Positions 47,347 through 62,800 of a stretch of DNA of 64,000 nucleotides are shown in pieces. A program made the position numbers and the translations under genes. The first letter of the stretch is position 1, and each line of letters starts with the position of its first letter. The notes under the pieces were generated by a model that was given only the letters and a program-made list of their open reading frames with translations, made no database searches and was not told the origin of the DNA. Source of the stretch: Heterotrichella gracilis (lineage: Eukaryota; Sar; Xanthophyceae; Tribonematales; Xanthonemataceae); NCBI GenBank assembly GCA_032358255.1, contig JAULBX010007774.1, forward strand, positions 1 to 64,000, given 5' to 3'.

Positions 47347-50657
<3,311 letters not shown>

Positions 50658-51469
50658 CCTGAACAGGTTTCGCTGTAACTTTGCAAGGTGGAAGCACGTT
50701 TGTCCGAGAGCGAGGTGGTAAGCAACAGTTCAAGCCATCTGACGTGTGAGGAAAGTTTGTCTCGCTATTTGCAGTCTCCTGTGTAAGCAGGTATCGGGCG
50801 TTCAGTGCGGTCAAAGCTGGTGCAGATTGTCAGGTGCATGCGCTTTGACCGAGGAAGCTCAGGTTTTCTAAAAGGTTCAACCTCAAGGCAGGCTACTGAA
50901 CAGCTAGTAATCAGGAACTTGGGAAAGTCTACCTTTAAAGACACAAGCAAAACACAAATAGGCCCCTGTTCAGACAGTTCATGACCATCACTTTCCGTAA
51001 CCACACGGGATTGACACCTGGAGCCGGAACCTCGAGTCGAAGTGCACTGGCCTAGACTCTAGAGTCCGAACATGGCATAAGAACCACGCGTTTGCGTTTC
51101 CAACACGCGAAACTGAAGTCTCCCACTTGTTAAGCTTGCTATGGTCCGCAACTGACGATAGTCCCTACCTTGCACGCTTACTCGTACATATATGCATGCA
51201 TTGTAGACACCACCTAGGCGAGTCCTAGTTTCCGGGGGCTTTTTGCGACTGCTCACCTCTGCAATCGAGCGGCTGGGTAGTGGTTTCAAGTTTATTTGTG
51301 GGTCTGGCAAGTTTTTATATACGGGCAAGGCGCAAATGGTGCTCATCAAAATGCCATATATCGTGGCACTAAGTGGTACCTTCAGCCTGTAGCTAGGAGC
51401 TGTTCCCGGCGGGTACCACCCCTCAAAGCTCATACTTCAGGTCTAAGCAGACAGCATCAATATACACAT
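50658..51469. promoter_or_regulatory. Divergent promoter region, katanin / phosphodiesterase-Smr gene
   Basis: This 812-base stretch lies between two outward-facing genes. TTTATATAC at 51314-51322 is TATA-like and lies about 150 bases before the ATG at 51470. An open frame runs into that ATG from upstream but has no in-frame ATG of its own. Confidence 0.45.
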
Positions 51470-54400
51470 ATGGCAGCACCTAGCCGTAACTGGTGGCCCT
51501 CCTATGCCCCACTGCCGGCAGCTGCTGAGCCACCCACAGTCCACGCACAAGCTGTCAGCTCTGCCACAGGAAGCAACTTCGATCCTGACAAGCAAGAGCA
51601 AGCCAACGCAGGTGCCGAGGAGGACTGTGGGTTGGGATCATACCTCCAGACGCTCCACCTAGACCACAATGGCCCCAGCACTGGTCAGGCACCTCAGCCC
51701 CACCCTCAACCCCCAGCAGTGTCTGGCCCAGCGTCCACCTTTGACGGACTCATTCAGTACTTCCTCACCGCGATGGATGAGCACCCAGACTCTGGAGAGG
51801 AGTCTGATGACGCACAGCCCCAGGTGTCATCTCCCACCGACACACACACAGCGCCCACCCCAGAGGCACAGCAAGAGCCACACAAGTCCAAGCTCAGCAG
51901 CTTGTACGACTTTGTGGCCCCGCACGCAGTGTCTACAAGCAGAAAGGGGGTGACATTCCACTTGGGAAGCTCCATCGGGGCCAAGAGCCACCCAACTTCC
52001 AAAGAGGTAACTTCACTGCGCATATATATTCTCTACATTCCACCATACTATGTTTGGGCTCGTTGTTCCATTGCTAGTGCAAATGCCCTGCTATCTCAGA
52101 CTTTGATGAGAACCTGGTTGTTCCTGGCTCACAGAGGCGCACCTTGTTTTCTGCGGTGTTTCTGGAACCGCTCACTGACCACAGACCCTCAACCCTAAAC
52201 CCTAACAGGGTGAGGCGTGGGGCACACCAAAGCCTGACCTGGGTGTCCCCCCTTGTGCGCAGAGGCGCGTCCTGTTTTCTGCGGTGTTTTTGGATACCCG
52301 CAGCCGCGCGGAGCTGCTTCGCGTGTGCGTCCCCAGGCACGAGAACCTGTTTGCCGACCACATGACCATAGGCTTCAAACCCAGTGCCGAGGATGCGCTG
52401 CGCCTGCCGCTGGGGGCTCCCGTGAACCTGTTTGTGGACGGCATCGTCACAAATGGCAGGGTGCAGGTGAGGCTGGCAGCCGGCAGTAGCAGTAACCCCA
52501 TTATGTGGGATTTTTGTTCAGGGGTGATGGGGTAGGAAATCGTTGTGAATGGCAGGTCACAAGTCAGGTTTCCAGACCTGTAGAGTGCTTGCTGGCAATG
52601 CACATATTGCAGGCGTGGTATACGGGTCAGTACATCGCTTGCCTGGTGCACCCACCCAAGCATTGCTGTGTAATTGTTTATCATCATGGTGCTCATTGGT
52701 TGCTGCATGCGAGGTCGATTACATTAAATCAGACATGGTTGATTTATGTGAAGTCTCATAGTACTCAATGAGGCTGCCTCATCACTGGTTCATGATGAGC
52801 GTCATCGATAGAAAGGGTGCTTATGTGGCTGTCCGCATGCAGGCTGTGCTGGTAACCTCCGATGTGGCGCTGGGCGATTCAAAGGCGCCTCACATTACGG
52901 TGTCGGTGGCACCAGGTATGCACTCTCTCCCTTGCGCTCTCCAAACACAAATGCTACACAAGGCGGCGCTCATGCATGGAATATCACAATGCATGGATTG
53001 AAGGTGTAAACCTAGAATGGGCTCATATTATCAGTGCAATTCATTAGTCGTCCATGGCTGATGTTCTTGCAATGTTGTTACCAGCATATTGCATTATTAG
53101 CCGTTTATGGTTGATTTGTTCAACAACAATACTGGCGCAGGGGTGCCGGCCAAGGAGGCTGGCGAAACTGCTGCAAAGTGCCTCGAGGGAAGCGCCAAGT
53201 GCTGGGTGAAGTCTAAGGGCAGAGTGGTGCTGACAGGTACGTAACTGTCTCAACAGCATGCAGCCTTTTGTGTGCTTGTGTCCTTAGATGTCAACGATTG
53301 TTGCATTGGCTGCCATTGTGGACGCATGTATTTTGGGAAGTGGACCAAAATAGAAGGGAACAGTAGTTCTTCTTTCAAGAAGAACTAGATTTGAAAGAAG
53401 ATGTGAAACAAAATGCATGCATCTTACAGGATTTGTGGGAGTGAAGGTGACTGGCGCCAACATTGTCAAATCCCCTGAGGAGCTCTACGAAGCCCTGGGA
53501 CTACCAACCCCTGCAAACCCCGCCAGGGTTCTGGCGACCCCAGCCGCCACCACAGCGCCCGGCTCGCCCCCACTCCCCACCACACAGCAGCGTCAGGAGG
53601 CTACCAGCCCACCCACGCCGCCTGCGGCAGGGAGGCAGGGTGGGTCACGGCAGGCTTCATCCCGTGGGCCGCGGCCCGCACAGGCGCTGTGGACGCGTGG
53701 AGGGGGCAGTAATGGACCAAATGGACCCGGGAATGGACTATCCAAGGCCACACGTCCCCAAAAGGGTGCATCAGCAGCAACAGCAGGAGGATCCTACACC
53801 CCGGTGCCCCCATCGGCAGCGCCCGCATTCCTTTCCCAGCAAGGCAGCACTCAGCCTTTCAGGGACAATGTTTCACCTGGCTTTGAAGGCGGGAGCGAAG
53901 GGTTTGGCCAGCCTTCAGAATCCTCATTGGCAGGATCAGCACCACCTGTGGTCAGCATATTGCAGCGGCCACCCGCACCCCCTCCGCCCCCACCATCCCT
54001 CATCTCCACCCTCCAGTCCGCGCGCACGGCCCTCCCCCCACCCCTCCTCACCCCCCCCCAGGTCTCTGCCGCCATGGCAGGGCCTGGCGGGGCGCCACCT
54101 GGCAGACCCCCACCTGTCGCCACCTCAGGAACCGACAAAAGGGCGAAAGGGGACGGCGGGCGCAAGCCCGCACCGCCGCCTTCGCCGCCCAAGATCCTCC
54201 TTTCCTCCAACTCCTACAAGCGCTACGACCTAGCCAGTGACCACGGCAGGGCCAAGGCACAGGCCGATGCAGCCATGGAGTCTATTGGGACAGCGGCAGT
54301 CCCCAGGATTCTGAAGAGGGGCGAGGCGCCTGCAACCACCAAGCAGTCCAGCAGTACGCCTGAGGGTGGCACCAGCGCAGGGGCTGCAGGCCCCCCACCC

Positions 54401-57400
54401 AGGGGCGCCTTGGCGGCTGTGTCACCGGCGGCTAAGCCAATGGCAACTGCTCAAACTGCGCCTGGTCAAAAGGTGCGTGGTCCATCATCCGCTGGGCCGA
54501 AACCAGCTGGGTCAAATGCGGCTGATGCTGTGGTTCCTGAGCCATCCGTGGCGAGGCTAATGGCGGGGGGCATGACGTCTGGGCCCATGGGGTCAGTGCG
54601 CAACCTGCTGCAGCGCCCCCCCAACCAGCCGGCAGTGTTCACCCCCAGCAGGATGGAGCGCCCCCCGTCAACCCCACCCCCTGCCGCACCAGCCCCTGCC
54701 GAGCCACACAGGGAGGGACCCTCACCGGGTAGCCAAGGGGGGGCGAGCACATCTAGCGCCGCTGGGGGGGTGGCAGCTAGTCACGTCAATTATCCCATGG
54801 ACCATGGGGGCACCAGCAGCATGACATCACCAGCGGTGGCAGGAGGGGTGGATGGCGCGAGGCAGAAGAGCGTGAAGTGGGAGGACCACCAGCCCCCATG
54901 GCAGTCCCAGGGATCACATGACTCGGATGATGTGCTGGGGGCAGCCTTTCGGGATGTGGGGGTGGGCAGCCAGGTGGGTGGGGTGGGGTGCGCTCTGGAT
55001 TTGATTGAAGATGTGCCCTTGTTTCATTTGAATGCTTGCTGCTTCCCCTGCTTGCCTTTTGTTCGCGATACCCTAGCTGGGGTTCCTTTCCTGTTCTTGT
55101 TTGGGTGTTGAAGCTCATACCCTGTCCCCTTCACCTGCACCTGATTGTAGCACAAAATTATGGACCTGGTCCTGCTCTGATCCTGCTCTAGTTTGCACAA
55201 AATGCACACAAAATGCACACAAAATATGGCTCTGATCCTGACTGCGTTCTGTCCCCAGGTGGGTGGCGATGCGGCTACCAGCAGAGAGGACAAACAGGAG
55301 GTACTCCTGGAGCGGTTGCTGCAGGAAGCGCCTCAGCTGGAAGAGGAGTCAGCGAGGGAAATCCTAGAGGCGAGTGCCGACAGGGCAGGGCAGGGGCTGT
55401 GCAGAATCTTCACATGTGTTTGCAATGTGTTGCACGATATCAATGGAGTTTTGTTGGTTTTGTTGGTGTGGCTGAAGGTGCTTCACAGATCCACTGGTCA
55501 TGGCTGTACATGCATTAATGGACCCTAGCTCCATGCGTGGGCTTACGGGTGACGCAGATTAGGCTTGTAACCCGCAACAATTGTTGGTACCAAATTGTTT
55601 GGACGAGGATTATTTTAAGTAGCATTACCAATGAGCCTTGATGACACCTTCCCCCCCTGTACAGGCATGCAACTATGATTGGCACGCTGCTTGGGAGCTT
55701 GCAAATAGCCTTGCAGCGGGGATGGCATCACCTGTCCATGCCTCCAGGGACCAGGGGACCAGTAGCCGTGGGAAAAACGTGGCCCAGAGCAGTGAAGGTG
55801 AGTGTACGGGTCGGAATTCCCAAAAACAACTGGGATACGTAGCAGTGGGGAGGGGAGAGTCGGGCAGGGGAGACAGTTGTACGGTCAAATTTTGGCGTAA
55901 ATGGTTGTAGAGGCCGTCATTCCACACTCTGTCATGTGTGCTGTGCCTTGCAGGCACCCTGGCGTCCTGGGACCCTACAACCAGGGCCAGCAAGGTCTCA
56001 AGGAGGCAGAAGCAGCGGGTGCAAAAGCAGGCGGGCATCTCCTCAGGGCCCCAAGCCCCAATGCCCAATCAGGTGCAGCCTCCTGAGATGGGGCATGCCA
56101 CGTGTCAGCCCATGGCTGCGCCACGGCAAGGGGGTGCAGCAGCATCGGGAACACAGCCATTGGGATTGGGGGATGACCCCCGGGATGGGACACATTCTGG
56201 AGATCAATTGGGTGATCGCCCAGGCAGTGGGTCTATGCTTGAAAGTGTATTTGGACCTCCAGCGACGACCTCCTCCCTGAACCCCGCCCGCACCCCCACC
56301 CCCTTCTCCTCCCCAGTGCCAGCGTTTACCCTAGGCCAGCAGCCGCAACCTCTGGCTAGGGTTTCACCGCAGCCGCAGTGGGGCAGGGGCGAGCCGTACC
56401 CTAGCGGAACCCTCCACCCCAGGGAAACCATACCGGAGCTTGGGTTTGGACCCGTTTCCCCACTGCCTTCACCGCTGCAAATGAGGAGCAATCTACCTGT
56501 GGGGCTCCCGTTTTCGTCTCAGCCCTATGGACTTCCAAACCCTCCTTCCATGGGCAGCCATCAGGTGTTTAGCATGGGCTCTCACCCCTCCAATCTGGTG
56601 CTCTCCATGAGCAGCCCCGCTGCTGACGTCAGCATCCACTTCAGCAACCCAGCCAACCAGGCGGCGACAAGTGGCACAGGTCGGTGCTTGCATCTGCCTC
56701 AAAACTGGGTGCCCGTTTTGCTGGGCATAATCATGACTTGGAAGGTTATACGCTGTGACGGACCCAAAGACGAAAGTACACTTTGAGTAAGGTCCCAATT
56801 GGCCTGAATCCTGTGATCAAGTAAGACAACATCGAAGTAAAATCTTTATATATTGCGCAGGTCTGCCAACCTCTGGAGGAACGTTCGTGGTCTCGCGTGG
56901 GCTCCCCACAGCCCCCCTGGCGCCCCACCACACACCCCACCACCAGCCCGCACCCGCCTCCTCCGCGCCAAATGACGACATCTGCCGCAGCCTTGCTGAT
57001 GTCACCAGCAAGCTTGCAGCCATCGCACAGCAGCTGGCGGGTGGGGGTGGGGGTGGGAATGGTGGGGGTGGGGGTGCTCACTCCCCCCAACCTGGGCTGA
57101 GGGGGGTGATGGGGATGGATTTGGGGCGGCCGCCGCCGCCACCGCCCCCACCATTGGCACCCATGGCGCAGGGGGTGGCGCTGGGTGCGCCACAGAAACC
57201 AGGCAACACATATATGGGGCTGGGTGAGGCGGTGGGAGGTGGCGGTTATGGGTCGGGTGGCGATGGGTGGAGGGGCGGCCAAGGGGGGCAGCAGCAGTGG
57301 GTGGAGAGGGGAGGGAAGAGGCAGGGGGACAAGGGGAGGTGGACTGGCCAACGCAACAGGTGCGGTGCCGGTGTTGTCTGCCAATTAAAAGCATTTATTT

Positions 57401-59278
57401 TTTGGTACAAGATGGATTCCAAGTAAAAAGCTGTATTGCCTGATTCATCAATGAGCTGCATGGTTGGAGCCTGTGTTACATTATGGATTATAATGATGTG
57501 TTAAATTTCTGGCGATCAGCATGTGCAAGCCCACAGCATTGATAAAACCGTCAGCAACTGCAAAGCCAATCGCACATTGTGTTTTTTGTTGCCATTCACT
57601 CACTGTTTTCTCCCCGATTTGCCCCACACAGGTCTGGCGCAGCCCCCTTGTCTGAAGAGAACCGTGATGAGAAGGAGCGCATGAAGCTGGAGGCGGATGG
57701 AGAGCGAGAGACATTCAACCTGCACATCCAGGCGCAAAAGATGTTCCAAAATGTAAGATGTGGCATTTGTTCACCTTGGAACATTGTCAATTGCAAAAAA
57801 TGGCAATTTTGAACGGTTCTTCCCACACTGTTGGTCATTGTCTTGGGATGCCTGTCTGTGGTCGGCTGGTGGGAGTGTGCGCCATTGTTGGATACGGCTG
57901 TTGTTGGCCTGCATGTCGTGCTTCCCATCTCAATTCCTGCGCCCATGGCCCCCTTACGCACCTGCCCACCGCCTCAGGCAGCCAACGCCAGCTTTGCGCG
58001 TGCTGAACTTAGGCCTATCCACTATCCCTAATGTGGCCCCCAAGCTTTCCGTGTGCAGGCCGCCAACGCCGCCTTTGAGCGCGGCGATGCTGGCGCAGGC
58101 AAGGAGATGGTGCGCAAGGCCAAGGAGCACGCGCAGCTGGCACAGGACTCCAAGCGCAAGGCCAACGAGGCGGCCTACACCAGCAGCAATATAGGGCTGC
58201 AGAACAGGCTGACGGTGCGTTTTGGTGGGGTATGGGGGGGTGGGTGGGATGCATGCTATGTTGGTGTGAGCGCCGGCGGCCCAGAGTGTAATGGGCAAGT
58301 GTGTGTGGCACAGGCATGGCTATTCGTGTACTTGGTATGCTGTGCTTGCATTCCGAAATTGCATTCCATTGGCTGCATCATGCGCAGACGGTTTTTAGGG
58401 TTTAGGGTTTACCCTAAACCCTAAACCCTGACCCCTGCATCATGCGCAGACGCGACAATGAACTCCTGAGCACCATCCTCAGTTCCTTTCGCATGCAAAA
58501 CTTCCCTGGATCTCCTCCCTAATCCTGTTCCCAACCTTTTGTTCTTATGTCTGAAAGTTTGTAAAATTCCTCCCCTGATATATGTTTCAACCCCTTCTCC
58601 GCGTCCAGGTTGACCTGCACGGCATGCATGTTGACGAGGCACTGCAGGCATTGATTAAAATGATTATGCAATTCCTCCCCTGACATGTGTTTAACCCTAC
58701 TCCCTCTCCCCTTGCAGGTTGACCTGCACGGTATGCACGTTGACGAGGCGCTGCAGGCACTTGACCGCCACCTGGTGCACCTGGCGGGGCTGGGCCATCC
58801 TGACGGCATCATCCTGCAGATCATCGTGGGTAAGGGTACTGTAGGCTGTACAGGGTGCAAGAACGTAGACAGTACAGGGACTGAAGCAGGGACAGGGGTA
58901 GGGACGGGGACAGGAAGAGACACTTAGGCAAGGTCCTGGGTTCTGAAAGGGTCAAAATTGAACAAAATGCACGTTATAATCATGTGCAAGTGAGTCTGTA
59001 TGCCTTCCCCATTGCAAGGGTGAACCAAATGCAACTGGGTGAAGTAAGTACGGAACTGGACTCGCATTTGTGAAACCCTAAACCCTAAACCCTCCCTTAC
59101 AGGTGTGGGCAAGCACAGCGAGGGGGGCCGTGCTCGCATCCAGCCTGCAGTGGTGCGCGATCTGGAGGAGCGGGGGGTCAATTCCTGGGAGGAGCCGGGC
59201 AACCCGGGTCAGCTAAATGTGCTCATTGCGGGGCCTGGGAATGTGGGCAAGGGGGACGAAGGGGGGCTGGAGGCGTGA
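51470..59278 (+). CDS. 2H cyclic phosphodiesterase (tRNA-ligase type) - CUE - DUF1771 - Smr protein
   Basis: Thirteen exons join in phase: 51470-52006, 52263-52466, 52843-52915, 53141-53236, 53430-54973, 55259-55369, 55665-55797, 55954-56679, 56861-57359, 57632-57752, 58059-58214, 58718-58829 and 59103-59278, for 1495 residues. Residues about 180-310 resemble the cyclic phosphodiesterase domain of plant tRNA ligase, with both 2H motifs (H212-M-T in ADHMTIGF, H264-I-T in APHITVSVAPGVPAKEA). A 500-residue Pro-rich disordered region follows. A CUE domain (about 828-875, EVLLERLLQEAPQLEEES then ILEACNYDWHAAWEL) should bind ubiquitin. DUF1771 (about 1325-1400) and an Smr domain (1401-1480, VDLHGMHVDEAL, GKHSEGGRARIQPAV) end the chain. 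CUE-DUF1771-Smr is known from N4BP2-type no-go-decay nucleases; the phosphodiesterase partner is unusual. I infer a factor that cuts stalled mRNA and opens the cyclic phosphate. Intron 6 uses a GC donor. Confidence 0.85.
52131..52172 (+). repeat. Copy of the phosphodiesterase exon 2 acceptor and start
   Basis: CACAGAGGCGCACCTTG then TTTTCTGCGGTGTTT parallels GCGCAGAGGCGCGTCCTG then TTTTCTGCGGTGTTT at 52258-52290. The offset is 128 bases. Telomere-like CCCTAAACCC lies between the two. Confidence 0.8.
53364..53387. repeat. Perfect 11-base hairpin in an intron
   Basis: TAGTTCTTCTT and AAGAAGAACTA are exact reverse complements with a two-base loop. It lies 42 bases before the acceptor of exon 5 of the phosphodiesterase-Smr gene. 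Confidence 0.7.
55370..55664 (+). other. GC-AG intron
   Basis: Phase and the CUE domain require a join of ILE to ACNYD. That places the donor at GAG/GCGAGT and the acceptor at GTACAG. The nearest GT donor is out of phase. Confidence 0.7.
57971..58003 (+). repeat. Copy of the DUF1771 exon start
   Basis: CTCAG then GCAGCCAACGCCAGCTTTG parallels TGCAG then GCCGCCAACGCCGCCTTTG at 58054-58077. The offset is 81 bases. In frame it would read AANASFARAE against AANAAFERGD. Confidence 0.75.
58373..58452. repeat. Palindromic telomere-repeat insertion between 18-base direct repeats
   Basis: CTGCATCATGCGCAGACG occurs at 58373-58390 and again at 58435-58452. Between them TTTAGGG units meet CCCTAAA units head to head, making a near-perfect palindrome. 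The layout looks like an insertion with target-site duplication. Confidence 0.85.
58559..58661 (+). repeat. Tandem duplicate of the Smr exon start with its upstream intron
   Basis: The unit matches about 58671-58770 and includes intron sequence (AATTCCTCCCCTGA, ATGTTT), the acceptor and codons for VDLHGMHVDEALQAL. The exon part differs only at synonymous third positions up to that point. The copy has no donor and runs into a stop. Confidence 0.85.
59074..59097 (+). repeat. CCCTAAA array at an intron 3' end
   Basis: Three CCCTAAA units lie directly before the pyrimidine tract and TTACAG acceptor of the last exon of the phosphodiesterase-Smr gene. Confidence 0.75.
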
Positions 59279-59875
59279 GGGGGTGTTACAGCTGCCCAGG
59301 ATGCGTTTGTTGCGGCAGTGTTGGATGTCGCACTGTAAGGGTTTCGGGTTTGGCTGCAGCGCACCCCCCCTCGAGGTTTTGCGCCTCTCGAGGCCCCCCT
59401 CAAGATCGATGTGACGTAATGCAATGGTCCTCGAGTGCGATGATGACGTGAACCATAAAATGGTTCCTTGTAATGACTGCACATGGAAATTGGCACACGG
59501 AAAGCCTTAGGCTGAGCCATGTCTCACTGAGGACCGGTCAGAGCCTGACGTCACAAAACGCCTGGCAGTGCGCATGCAGCCGCTGACTTGGAAACGTGCA
59601 AATTTTTCGATAAAAAAATAGAGAAAAGAAGACACGAGAAAAGAGAAGAGATATTCGTAAGGCACTGTAAGGCGGCGTATCAAATGTGACATAAAACTTG
59701 AAGAATGTGGAGGTGTTGAAATTCAATCACCAATGCAATGCAACACCAAACACTTGGTGCCTGGAGCATCTCCAGCACCAACGCAGCACTTGTGGGACCA
59801 GTTATGACTCAAAAGCGCACCCATGACAAATACTCATATCCATTCATTATTTGACATTTCCGCCAACTTTAGCCC
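59279..59875. other. No gene seen; convergent intergenic region
   Basis: The stretch lies between the 3' ends of the phosphodiesterase-Smr gene and the PP2C-kinase gene. TGTAA at 59334-59338 and 59469-59473 are candidate polyadenylation signals for the former. No exon was found. Confidence 0.5.
59334..59338 (+). terminator. Candidate polyadenylation signal TGTAA
   Basis: It lies 56 bases past the stop of the phosphodiesterase-Smr gene. A second TGTAA follows at 59469. Assigned by position only. Confidence 0.35.
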
Positions 59876-62800
59876 TCAGCACCACCCATCGACCTCCCTG
59901 TCTGCGTGGCACGCCACCTGGTCATGGCTCTCCAGCAGCACTGTGAAGTAGGCATGCCTCAGGGCCTGGAGGGCAGTGGGGCGGTGGCCAGGGATCCAGT
60001 CCAGCAGGCTCCTCAGCAGGCGCACAGCCACCCTGCTGTGCAGCCCCTGGTGGGTGGGGTCCTTCTTCTTCAGGAGCTGCAGCAGCACAGCAGGGATGGG
60101 TTTCAGTGGGGTCTCAATAAACCCCTAAGACCTAAACCCTGAGACCCTACAGCAACCCTACTGCATATGTGCACACCTTGGTGGGTTTCAGGAAAACCCC
60201 AGAATCCTATATCCTGACGTTGTAAAACATGACTAGCTGAGCTAAATGCCATGCCAAAGCCATGCCGAATCATTATGCTGGCATCGAGTATGGATCACCA
60301 TGCAGCGCACACAGCACGCTCACCTCCATGATGGCATCATCTGAGCAGCTCCAAGACACCGGCACGTCACCGCCATCCCCGCACTCCACCCTGCCCCTGC
60401 CATGGGGCACTTCAGAGGTCACATTGACTCCCTCACTCGAGCCACATGGACCCGCGCTGGGTTTTGGTTTGCCCCTTGGTGGATACACACACAGCTCCAT
60501 CAGGCCACGCAGCAGGTAAGCCAGCTGCTGCTCCTCCTCTGTTTTGTCACCCAGCTTGAGGTTGTGATGCAGGAGTGCGCGTGTGTGGTGGCTGATCTCA
60601 AACACGTGGGGGGTCCCAAGTACCAGCTCCAGCCACACCACACCCACGCTCCAGATGTCATAGGACCACGTGTTGGCTGCAGTTTGCTTGCCGTACCAGT
60701 ACCTACATGGCATGGCAGCAGACCGCTTCAGTGGAATTTCACAACTGCAAGTTCTGTCACCTGGCAGCTTCAACTTCATTTGATGTATCAAAACCGCACC
60801 ATGTTGAGTGCTATTTTACTCCAGAGATTCTTTGTCAAAAAATACAAACAGGCAGAACTTACCTGCCAAAAACGGCTTCCGGCGGTGCATACTCCTGAGT
60901 TTGTTCTGCCTCTGAAGGTCCTTGACTGCCATACAACTGGTCAATTGTCGTCCCATCCACAGCAGATCCAAAGTCAATCAACCTCAAGTGAACTGGGCTC
61001 TTACTTGGGTTTTGAATCAGCAAGTTTTCAGGTTTGACATCCCTGCGGCAACAACACAATTTCGATCACTATCATGGGGCAGGCATGCAGAGAGCCAGGT
61101 CACTCTGCAAATTTGCAGATTCGTGCAATTATTGTCGGGCGTGAGATATAATGTGTATGGTGGTGTAATGGCAATGGAGCATGCAGTCATGCCAATGGCC
61201 CATCTGATTGCCAAAAAATACCCTGGATGGCTCAGTCAGGCCTCCACAAGCCATTCCCGATCAATGTTCAATACCAGCTCCAAGGATAACAGCCTCATCA
61301 GCTTTTAACTTTGGCAGCATCAAATATGGAGCATACCTGTGGGTCACGTTGACTGCATGTGTTGCTGCGAGCCCCATCAGCAGCTGTCCCAACATGTCTC
61401 GGATGATCCCCTCCCCGCGCTCACTCTGCCGCAACTCCAGCCACCATCCGCTTGGCCGCATGATCTGCACCTCCCCAATCACGTTGCTCTCTTGTGCATT
61501 GCCAGCTGCTGGCTGTGGCGCAGCAGGGTTTGTGCCTAGTTCCTCCACTGGGAATTGAGTGGTCGACGTGGTGTACATTAATGAATGGATGGATGTGCCC
61601 TCATCTTGGAACACAAGCCACAGATCCATCCCCACACGAAACCTCTCCACAAAGCGCACCTGTTGCATCAAGTACACTACTATATCAAGAATATTTGTAT
61701 GTAGTTGAAAAAAACAAAAAAGGATAGAAAAAAAGCAATCGACAAAAAGCAATAGAAAGAAAAAACCAATATTGGCCCGAAATCATATTCAGTGGGACAC
61801 CAAACGTAACGCACTTACCAGATGATCATACCCATCAAGGGTGGGGCAATTTGCTTGCGCATCAGAGCACAATGACAGCGTTTTCCCCGCCTGCAGCAGG
61901 CTGCCGAAATACGCCTCTCGCAAACCGCTCAACTTGTAGTTCTCGCCCTTTTCCACAAATATGCGTTTCATAACAACAGCTTCGTGACCTGGAAAGATGA
62001 GAAACGATGAGCATACTAGTACGAGCCAGAATGCAAAAGAAATGGTTTGATCAACACACATTGCTTGATTCACTGAATACCTACCGGCCTGCGTTCCAGC
62101 CTTCTGTTGCGCCCGGTATGAGAGGGGCTTCCTGAACGCTTTCCACACCTCACCAAAACCACCTGAAAAATGGTCGATTATTCATGTTGGTTATATGTAA
62201 ACAAATCCATGGTGTGCTCACCTACAACAGATAGAGCTCTCACCTTTGGCAAATTGCTGTTTGAGCTTGTAACCCTGCTTGCTGCTCGCATCACTGTCTG
62301 CCCTGCTGTATGCTTTCAAGCCTCTTCCTGACTGTGAGCGATGAATGTTGGACGCCATGCCTGGCAGCATGTCAAGCAGCAGAGGTATGGTAGCAAGAGA
62401 CTTGATCAAAGCGGTGGACAGTGGAAGTGCGTACTCCTGTTGTTGAGCTGAACAATATCCCTGATCGTCCCACGGCTGCACTGCGCAGGATTTGAGATCA
62501 AACTTTATGACTTCTTTCGACCTGCCACCACTGGCTATCACCTCCTCCTCCTGTGACAAAGTTGCTACACTGCTAGACTGTGAGGCAGCTGCATCTGTCC
62601 TATCTGTCCTGTCTGTCCTGCCCTGGGAGTCAGACGTCCCTGGACCAGGCTGAACCACTGACACAGCTGTGTCAACGTAGCTGGCATACATTTCAGACAG
62701 CTGCAGGTGGTCGGGGAACACATTCTGGCTGCTGGGTACTAACGTGAAACCATCCTCAGGCTCAAACAATGTGTTGCTGTGCCAGTGGTCAACGTCTCCT

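Follow-up and report, generated by a model that had tools for sequence, protein, structure and literature searches.

The analysed stretch (the window) comprises positions 1-64000 of one contig (C80) in the 68.5-Mb, 903-contig assembly of the alga Heterotrichella gracilis. At 51470-59278 (+) it carries a gene modelled as 13 exons with phase-consistent splicing and a product of 1495 residues, in which an N-terminal 2H phosphoesterase (cyclic-phosphodiesterase-like) domain (residues ca. 181-320, 52266-53479, +, exons 2-5) stands on the same chain as a C-terminal tail made of DUF1771 (residues 1333-1392, 57705-58190, +, exons 10-11, Pfam PF08590) and a Smr domain (residues 1401-1483, 58718-59239, +, exons 12-13, Pfam PF01713 and N4BP2 sequences of the PDB). 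All exons lie on the forward strand, exons 1-5 at 51470-52006, 52263-52466, 52843-52915, 53141-53236 and 53430-54973, exons 6-9 at 55259-55369, 55665-55797, 55954-56679 and 56861-57359, and exons 10-13 at 57632-57752, 58059-58214, 58718-58829 and 59103-59278. The start is the first ATG in its open frame and the stop codon lies at 59276-59278; eleven of the introns are GT-AG and intron 6 (55370-55664) is GC-AG. A preliminary description of this DNA had proposed a single phase-consistent chain that unites the two enzyme types, and both points held: the model was rebuilt exactly (13 exons, all phases fit, 1495 residues), and the motifs and profile matches given below place a 2H cyclic-phosphodiesterase-type domain and the DUF1771-Smr tail together. 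We consider the fusion of the two on a single chain well supported.

A fusion of this kind could also be produced by chaining two adjoining genes or alternative transcripts, with exons 1-5 as a 2H gene and exons 6-13 as a CUE-DUF1771-Smr gene. Exon 5 and intron 5 together are open up to a stop that ends at 55111 (frame 53354-55111), and retention of intron 5 could yield a 2H-only product ending there; besides, the exon 5-6 junction is a prediction from the genome sequence, and a 2H domain was detected at neither of the two paralogue loci described below. However, exon 5 is open through its 3' end: its 1544 bases are free of in-frame stops, against 8 and 13 stops in the remaining forward frames, and none of 2000 shuffles of the exon was stop-free. 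Its splice to exon 6 is in phase, and exon 6 has no in-frame ATG. UGUAA is described as the poly(A) signal of Chlamydomonas (PMC4025486); intron 5 has no TGTAA, and one is found at 59334-59338 (+), 56 bases past the final stop, with the caveat that the same pentamer recurs at the donor of exon 10 and in four of the introns (2, 3, 6 and 11). The open exon 5, the in-phase splice, the missing ATG and the placement of TGTAA favour one gene, from which we infer a single mRNA for the whole chain; two chained genes or transcripts appear very unlikely.

Both 2H motifs that had been read from the translation are present, as H212-M-T214 (HMTI) at 52359-52367 (+, H212 codon at 52359-52361) and H264-I-T266 (HITV) at 52891-52899 (+, H264 codon at 52891-52893). 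In an alignment with plant cyclic phosphodiesterase domains (CPDs) of the tRNA-ligase type (alignment A4), every one of the 10 plant rows has its HxT motifs in register with them, as do the five bacterial and two plant rows of another (A5). We rejected the two HxT motifs alone as proof of the domain, since among 20000 shuffles of residues 1-340 there are 208 with a pair at such spacing; with a motif pair that frequent, it is the match at the level of the domain that is the evidence. Neither Pfam nor NCBIfam gave any family for the N-terminal domain at E <= 10, tRNA_lig_CPD (PF08302) included, and a search of PDB sequences with the domain found none. The plant CPD set consisted of the best 120 of 134 sequences; several carry the name tRNA ligase in their source records, and PF08302 matches the three that were tested, at 2.6e-8 to 4e-10. 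As the query combined the window domain with a plant CPD stretch, the selection is not wholly independent. With a profile of these 120 sequences alone the window domain scored 14.5 bits; the highest of 2000 shuffles had 10.2. Alignment of the whole domain to the plant CPD reached a z score of 6.7 that none of 1000 shuffles equalled; by halves, the second is the stronger (z 8.2, 0/1000 shuffles) and the first the weaker (z 3.2, 4/1000). A comparison of the plant alignment with the window domain by hhalign gave a probability of 56 and an E value of 1.1e-4 over 30 columns. In an unspliced search with the plant profile, frames of the window exons ranked only 2 and 6 of 2538, after a chance frame, because the introns split the motifs. 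The plant model itself resembles CNPase (E 4.6e-6). Among PDB sequences the plant profile found no 2H chain. Scans of viral contigs with the plant CPD stretch, the window domain or A4 gave no relatives, nor did a scan of genome contigs with A4. The likeness to the phosphodiesterase of tRNA ligases that had been noted at the outset stands in part: the plant profile scores above all shuffles, but PF08302 is unmatched and, as shown next, bacterial and phage proteins are closer.

In the PHROGs library the domain matches phrog_36523 only weakly (E 0.037). When compared by tblastn with plasmids it gave 13 records, weak but co-linear (best E 5e-2), among them proteins annotated as hypothetical from Azospirillum, Sphingobium and Alteromonas; in phages, tblastn returned just two records of one phage (E 4). 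Three plasmid proteins tested match phrog_36523 at 4e-20 to 3e-26, and the Alteromonas protein (L035) matches PF08302 at 4.7e-6, whereas the other four tested do not. A scan of viral contigs found four relatives with the Sphingobium protein (L032) and none with L035 or L039. We built a profile of 15 members (L030, L031, L032, L034, L035 and L038-L047). Seven of the 13 records of the first plasmid search were fetched and five used, with L033 (matched in two pieces) and L036 (E 6) dropped; four haloarchaeal records, one from Novosphingobium and a further one from Sphingomonas paucimobilis were left out. Later searches gave six members taken from 23 records (L042-L047) and four from five, the fifth being the second record of one phage. 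With this profile the window domain scores 35.5 bits (E 4e-13 as a single test), and the match spans both HxT motifs; the highest-scoring of the 120 plant sequences reaches 18.1, and no shuffle among 5000 exceeds 9.7. Without the five members that had been found using the window domain the score is 22.0 bits versus 8.3 for shuffles, and with four phage members only it is 15.5 versus 9.0. The two HxT motifs are 44-54 residues apart in the 15 members, one of which (L045) has HVP as its first motif, and 52 apart in the window domain. The family model resembles 2H enzymes, including Acb1, CNPase and LigT, at modest scores.

By these profile comparisons, the domain appears nearer to small stand-alone bacterial and phage proteins than to the plant tRNA-ligase CPD, and a two-lobe 2H fold is predicted for it, directly by the alignment of the HxT motifs and, for the fold, through models of its relatives that match 2H structures. 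The phrog_36523 proteins are about 120 residues long, come from plasmids and large phages and are called hypothetical where annotated; in Sphingobium the gene comes after a cupin gene, near ligD. The family looks like a minimal 2H phosphoesterase, which would give a likely enzyme class to a plasmid and phage family whose function is given as unknown in PHROGs.

In the tail, the domains named in the preliminary description were recovered. Pfam matches on the 193-residue tail fall slightly below the curated cut-offs, with E 4.5e-6 and 27.3 bits for PF08590 (cut-off 28.7) and E 3.2e-5 and 24.4 bits for PF01713 (cut-off 25.7), and the Smr part matches three N4BP2 chains among PDB sequences at E 6.8e-10 to 7.1e-9, the best being 2vkc. 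D1402 and H1404, in the D-L-H motif at 58721-58729 (+), and R1449, in HSEGGRARI (codon 59135-59137, +), are located where N4BP2 carries identical residues. In Cue2, D348, H350 and R402 are reported to matter for cleavage (PMC6598757), and D1402, H1404 and R1449 presumably occupy the same positions, as judged from an alignment to N4BP2, not to Cue2. DUF1771 is described as often adjoining Smr in family 2 (PMC3200294), and the tail is predicted to be a family-2 Smr nuclease of the Cue2/N4BP2 kind. A scan of viral contigs with the DUF1771-Smr part found no relatives.

The case of the CUE domain is different. A CUE-like helical stretch can be seen as a visual pattern in exons 6-7 (residues ca. 823-875, 55271-55724, +), interrupted by the GC-AG intron at 55370-55664, and MAFFT aligns it with the CUEs of the two paralogues and with that of Tollip. 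Nevertheless, the CUE domain that had been called here was not borne out: Pfam CUE (PF02845) had no match at E <= 10, whether in the whole protein or in pieces of 72 or 46 residues, and the position of MFP, the ubiquitin-contact motif of CUE domains, reads EAP. For the same two reasons the proposal that the protein senses ubiquitinated ribosomes was not supported. The domain search of the 1495-residue product that had been suggested as a check thus gave DUF1771 and Smr, while tRNA_lig_CPD and CUE went unmatched by Pfam. More ordinary loci are kept elsewhere in the genome. One on contig C320 (L026) has a CUE above the cut-off (7.7e-5), a DUF1771 match and a Smr below the cut-off (7.9e-4), and one on contig C835 (L027) has a CUE above the cut-off (1e-5), a DUF1771 match and a Smr by its tblastn likeness to the window tail; searches of the genome with the 2H domain and the plant profile detected no 2H domain at either. 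With such CUE-DUF1771-Smr-like loci in the genome, a ubiquitin-sensing role for the window protein is conjectural.

The comparison with known systems indicates that the parts are known; our searches came upon the combination nowhere else, in agreement with the earlier remark that the architecture was not known from other organisms. Full-length searches of a 5.8-billion-protein database returned nothing at E <= 10, for the 2H part (1727 candidates) or for the DUF1771-Smr part (654 candidates); these searches had length limits and a word rule, and absence from other algae is not shown by them. Searches of a literature collection gave no paper that mentions a Smr domain, with or without DUF1771, together with a cyclic phosphodiesterase, with the NONU-1 paper outside their scope and an earlier mention possible, nor, among the matches listed, any that joins a Smr domain with a 2H phosphoesterase. 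The window protein shares with N4BP2, Cue2 and NONU-1 the DUF1771-Smr tail with D-x-H and Arg and a CUE-like stretch upstream of it, but differs from them by its N-terminal 2H domain, its long low-complexity linkers and a CUE-like stretch that Pfam does not recognise. N4BP2 carries a polynucleotide kinase. The window chain, as had been stated before, has no Walker A motif in its 1495 residues, and lacks in consequence the P-loop polynucleotide kinase feature of N4BP2 proper. With the plant and fungal tRNA-ligase CPD (PF08302) it has in common both HxT motifs and an alignable G-x-x-x-K-x-A stretch; its first lobe, however, is shorter, and no ligase or kinase was found on the chain. The phrog_36523 proteins of alphaproteobacterial and Alteromonas plasmids and of large phages are the nearest sequences to the N-terminal domain, with similar HxT spacing, yet they are stand-alone, with no nuclease fusion in the loci read. 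CNPase belongs to the same fold class and is reported to open 2',3'-cyclic phosphate and to counteract RtcB (PMC6456296, PMC13247085), but has no nuclease and is linked to the window domain through models of relatives only. Angel1 and Angel2 are suggested to act on 2',3'-cyclic phosphate ends of RNA during non-stop decay (PMC12265940), although they are CCR4 homologues and separate proteins, and Angel2 is described as removing the phosphate afterwards (PMC13247085).

RtcB is described as kept by green algae and lost in land plants (PMC13247085). In this genome, matches to RtcB were found exon by exon on two contigs, C7 and C739, and in a single frame without interruption on C1. The C7 stretch has an algal composition (56% GC, ten TTTAGGG/CCCTAAA units); C739 was assessed by its split matches alone. 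The stretch on C1 (763000-772900, L028) has 34% GC and is 93% covered by long frames, and was for this reason taken as bacterial. The sole match to Tpt1, the enzyme that removes the 2'-phosphate, is on the same contig, and given its bacterial-looking composition we rejected both this match and the RtcB of C1 as algal. The own-genome search with the window 2H domain matched its own exons only, and no second copy was detected. PF08302, PF08303 and a plant stretch found nothing in the genome, which does not show absence, as in control genomes PF08302 matched in none and PF08303 in one, below the cut-off.

To the reading that we find most likely we give a probability of roughly 0.4. The Smr end would cut the mRNA on a stalled ribosome, with 2',3'-cyclic phosphate and 5'-OH as the new ends. 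The 2H domain, tethered to it, would next open the ring, and the product would most probably be a 2'-phosphate, as with CNPase and the tRNA-ligase CPD. RtcB requires a cyclic or 3'-phosphate, so that a 2'-phosphate end would prevent it from rejoining the halves, and both would be committed to decay. The cuts of Cue2, NONU-1 and N4BP2 are predicted to leave 2',3'-cyclic phosphate on the 5' fragment (PMC12265940), those of yeast no-go decay are reported to leave 5'-OH on the 3' fragment (PMC6949252), the product of the tRNA-ligase CPD is given as 3'-OH/2'-phosphate (PMC6592678), and the 2'-phosphate end made by CNP is described as unusable by RtcB (PMC6456296; also PMC13247085). For the window protein we infer the catalysis, the order of events, the product end and the targeting to ribosomes. 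A further step, which we find rather doubtful, is that a small 2H enzyme of bacterial or phage type was captured by an RtcB-bearing alga onto a nuclease of the Cue2/N4BP2 type as a built-in lock against rejoining by RtcB. Angel1, which is homologous to a cyclic phosphatase, is reported as limiting in human non-stop decay, and that study puts forward the cyclic phosphate end made by ribosome-collision nucleases as a candidate target (PMC12265940). If the reading is true, a natural fusion of cutter and ring-opener would tie both steps together, in a protein that would allow the fate of this end to be followed directly.

Several points weigh against this reading. With the plant profile the whole 1495-residue chain scores 10.5 bits, scarcely above the 10.2 of the best domain shuffle, and the local match of the plant hidden Markov model covers only ca. 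32 residues (261-292) around the second HxT. Pfam recognises neither the 2H domain nor a CUE in the chain, no second species with the architecture turned up in our searches, the single mRNA is predicted from genomic DNA, and the loci on C320 and C835 could do the collision work instead. The only Tpt1 match is bacterial, and an exon-by-exon search cannot show that the alga is without Tpt1. Depletion of Angel1 is reported to cause no build-up of cyclic phosphate on the reporter tested (PMC12265940). Finally, 2H enzymes in general act on many substrates.

Among the other functions to be considered, the one that survives best is that of a tRNA-healing module, in which the 2H domain would open the cyclic phosphate on the P-site tRNA after release of the nascent chain, or on tRNA halves. 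The relationship with the plant tRNA-ligase CPD speaks for it; but the nuclease on the same chain would supply its own cyclic phosphate, a simpler substrate, and no plant-type tRNA ligase was found as a partner in the searches of the genome mentioned above (with the limit stated there), so that we hold this alternative to be unlikely. The degenerate CUE and the two other CUE-DUF1771-Smr-like loci leave room for a changed role, either with the 2H fold kept as a non-catalytic binder of RNA ends or with the whole protein moved from no-go decay to other RNA processing; this is a quite improbable outcome, as both HxT motifs and the D-x-H and Arg of Smr are intact, which would not be expected in dead enzymes. 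That the 2H domain acts on ADP-ribose cyclic phosphate or on cyclic nucleotides, in a regulatory or immune role unrelated to the cut of the nuclease, has little probability in our opinion. Cutting by Smr followed by ring-opening by the tethered 2H domain is the reading that we prefer.

Some other observations concern the genome as a whole. Bacterial-looking stretches (L028, L001, L002), with 34-35% GC and >90% coverage by long frames, are present in the assembly. On C1, RtcB and Tpt1 are ca. 5 kb apart and the frame between them is release-factor-like by eye, perhaps an RNA-repair cluster. A match to RNA ligases of the T4-Rnl1 type (C824:157361-157702, L009-L012, in a frame of 448 codons, E 6.9e-13) was found in addition to the RtcB-type ligases of the genome. 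We also discarded as a 2H relative a match of the Sphingobium protein on C739 (E 0.36), by eye a carotenoid-isomerase-like frame.

As for the rest of the gene, exon 1 (51470-52006, +) encodes, in translation, a low-complexity N-terminal extension that runs into the 2H domain; P, G, S, A, Q and T make up 61% of residues 1-137. Exon 5 completes the 2H domain and continues for ca. 500 residues in which Pro, Ala, Gly and Ser are abundant, and this linker (53480-54973, +) connects the 2H domain with the C-terminal part. The window has 54% GC and 33 CCCTAAA/TTTAGGG units, which together with the TGTAA past the stop would suit a green alga. Telomere-like runs of these units lie within introns at 52188-52210, 58375-58452 and 59074-59095, one of which is flanked by the repeated GCATCATGCGCAGACG. 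In three of the 12 introns the 3' splice site, together with the beginning of the exon that follows, has a near copy (82-87%) 81-128 bases further upstream, at 52123-52166, 57975-58000 and 58590-58650. These copies could serve as decoy acceptors, and that of the start of the Smr exon preserves the protein letters VDLHGMHVDEALQA. By eye, the neighbours are the 5' end of a divergent katanin-like gene upstream (50266-50660, -) and the end of a convergent protein kinase gene downstream (59876-60815, -).

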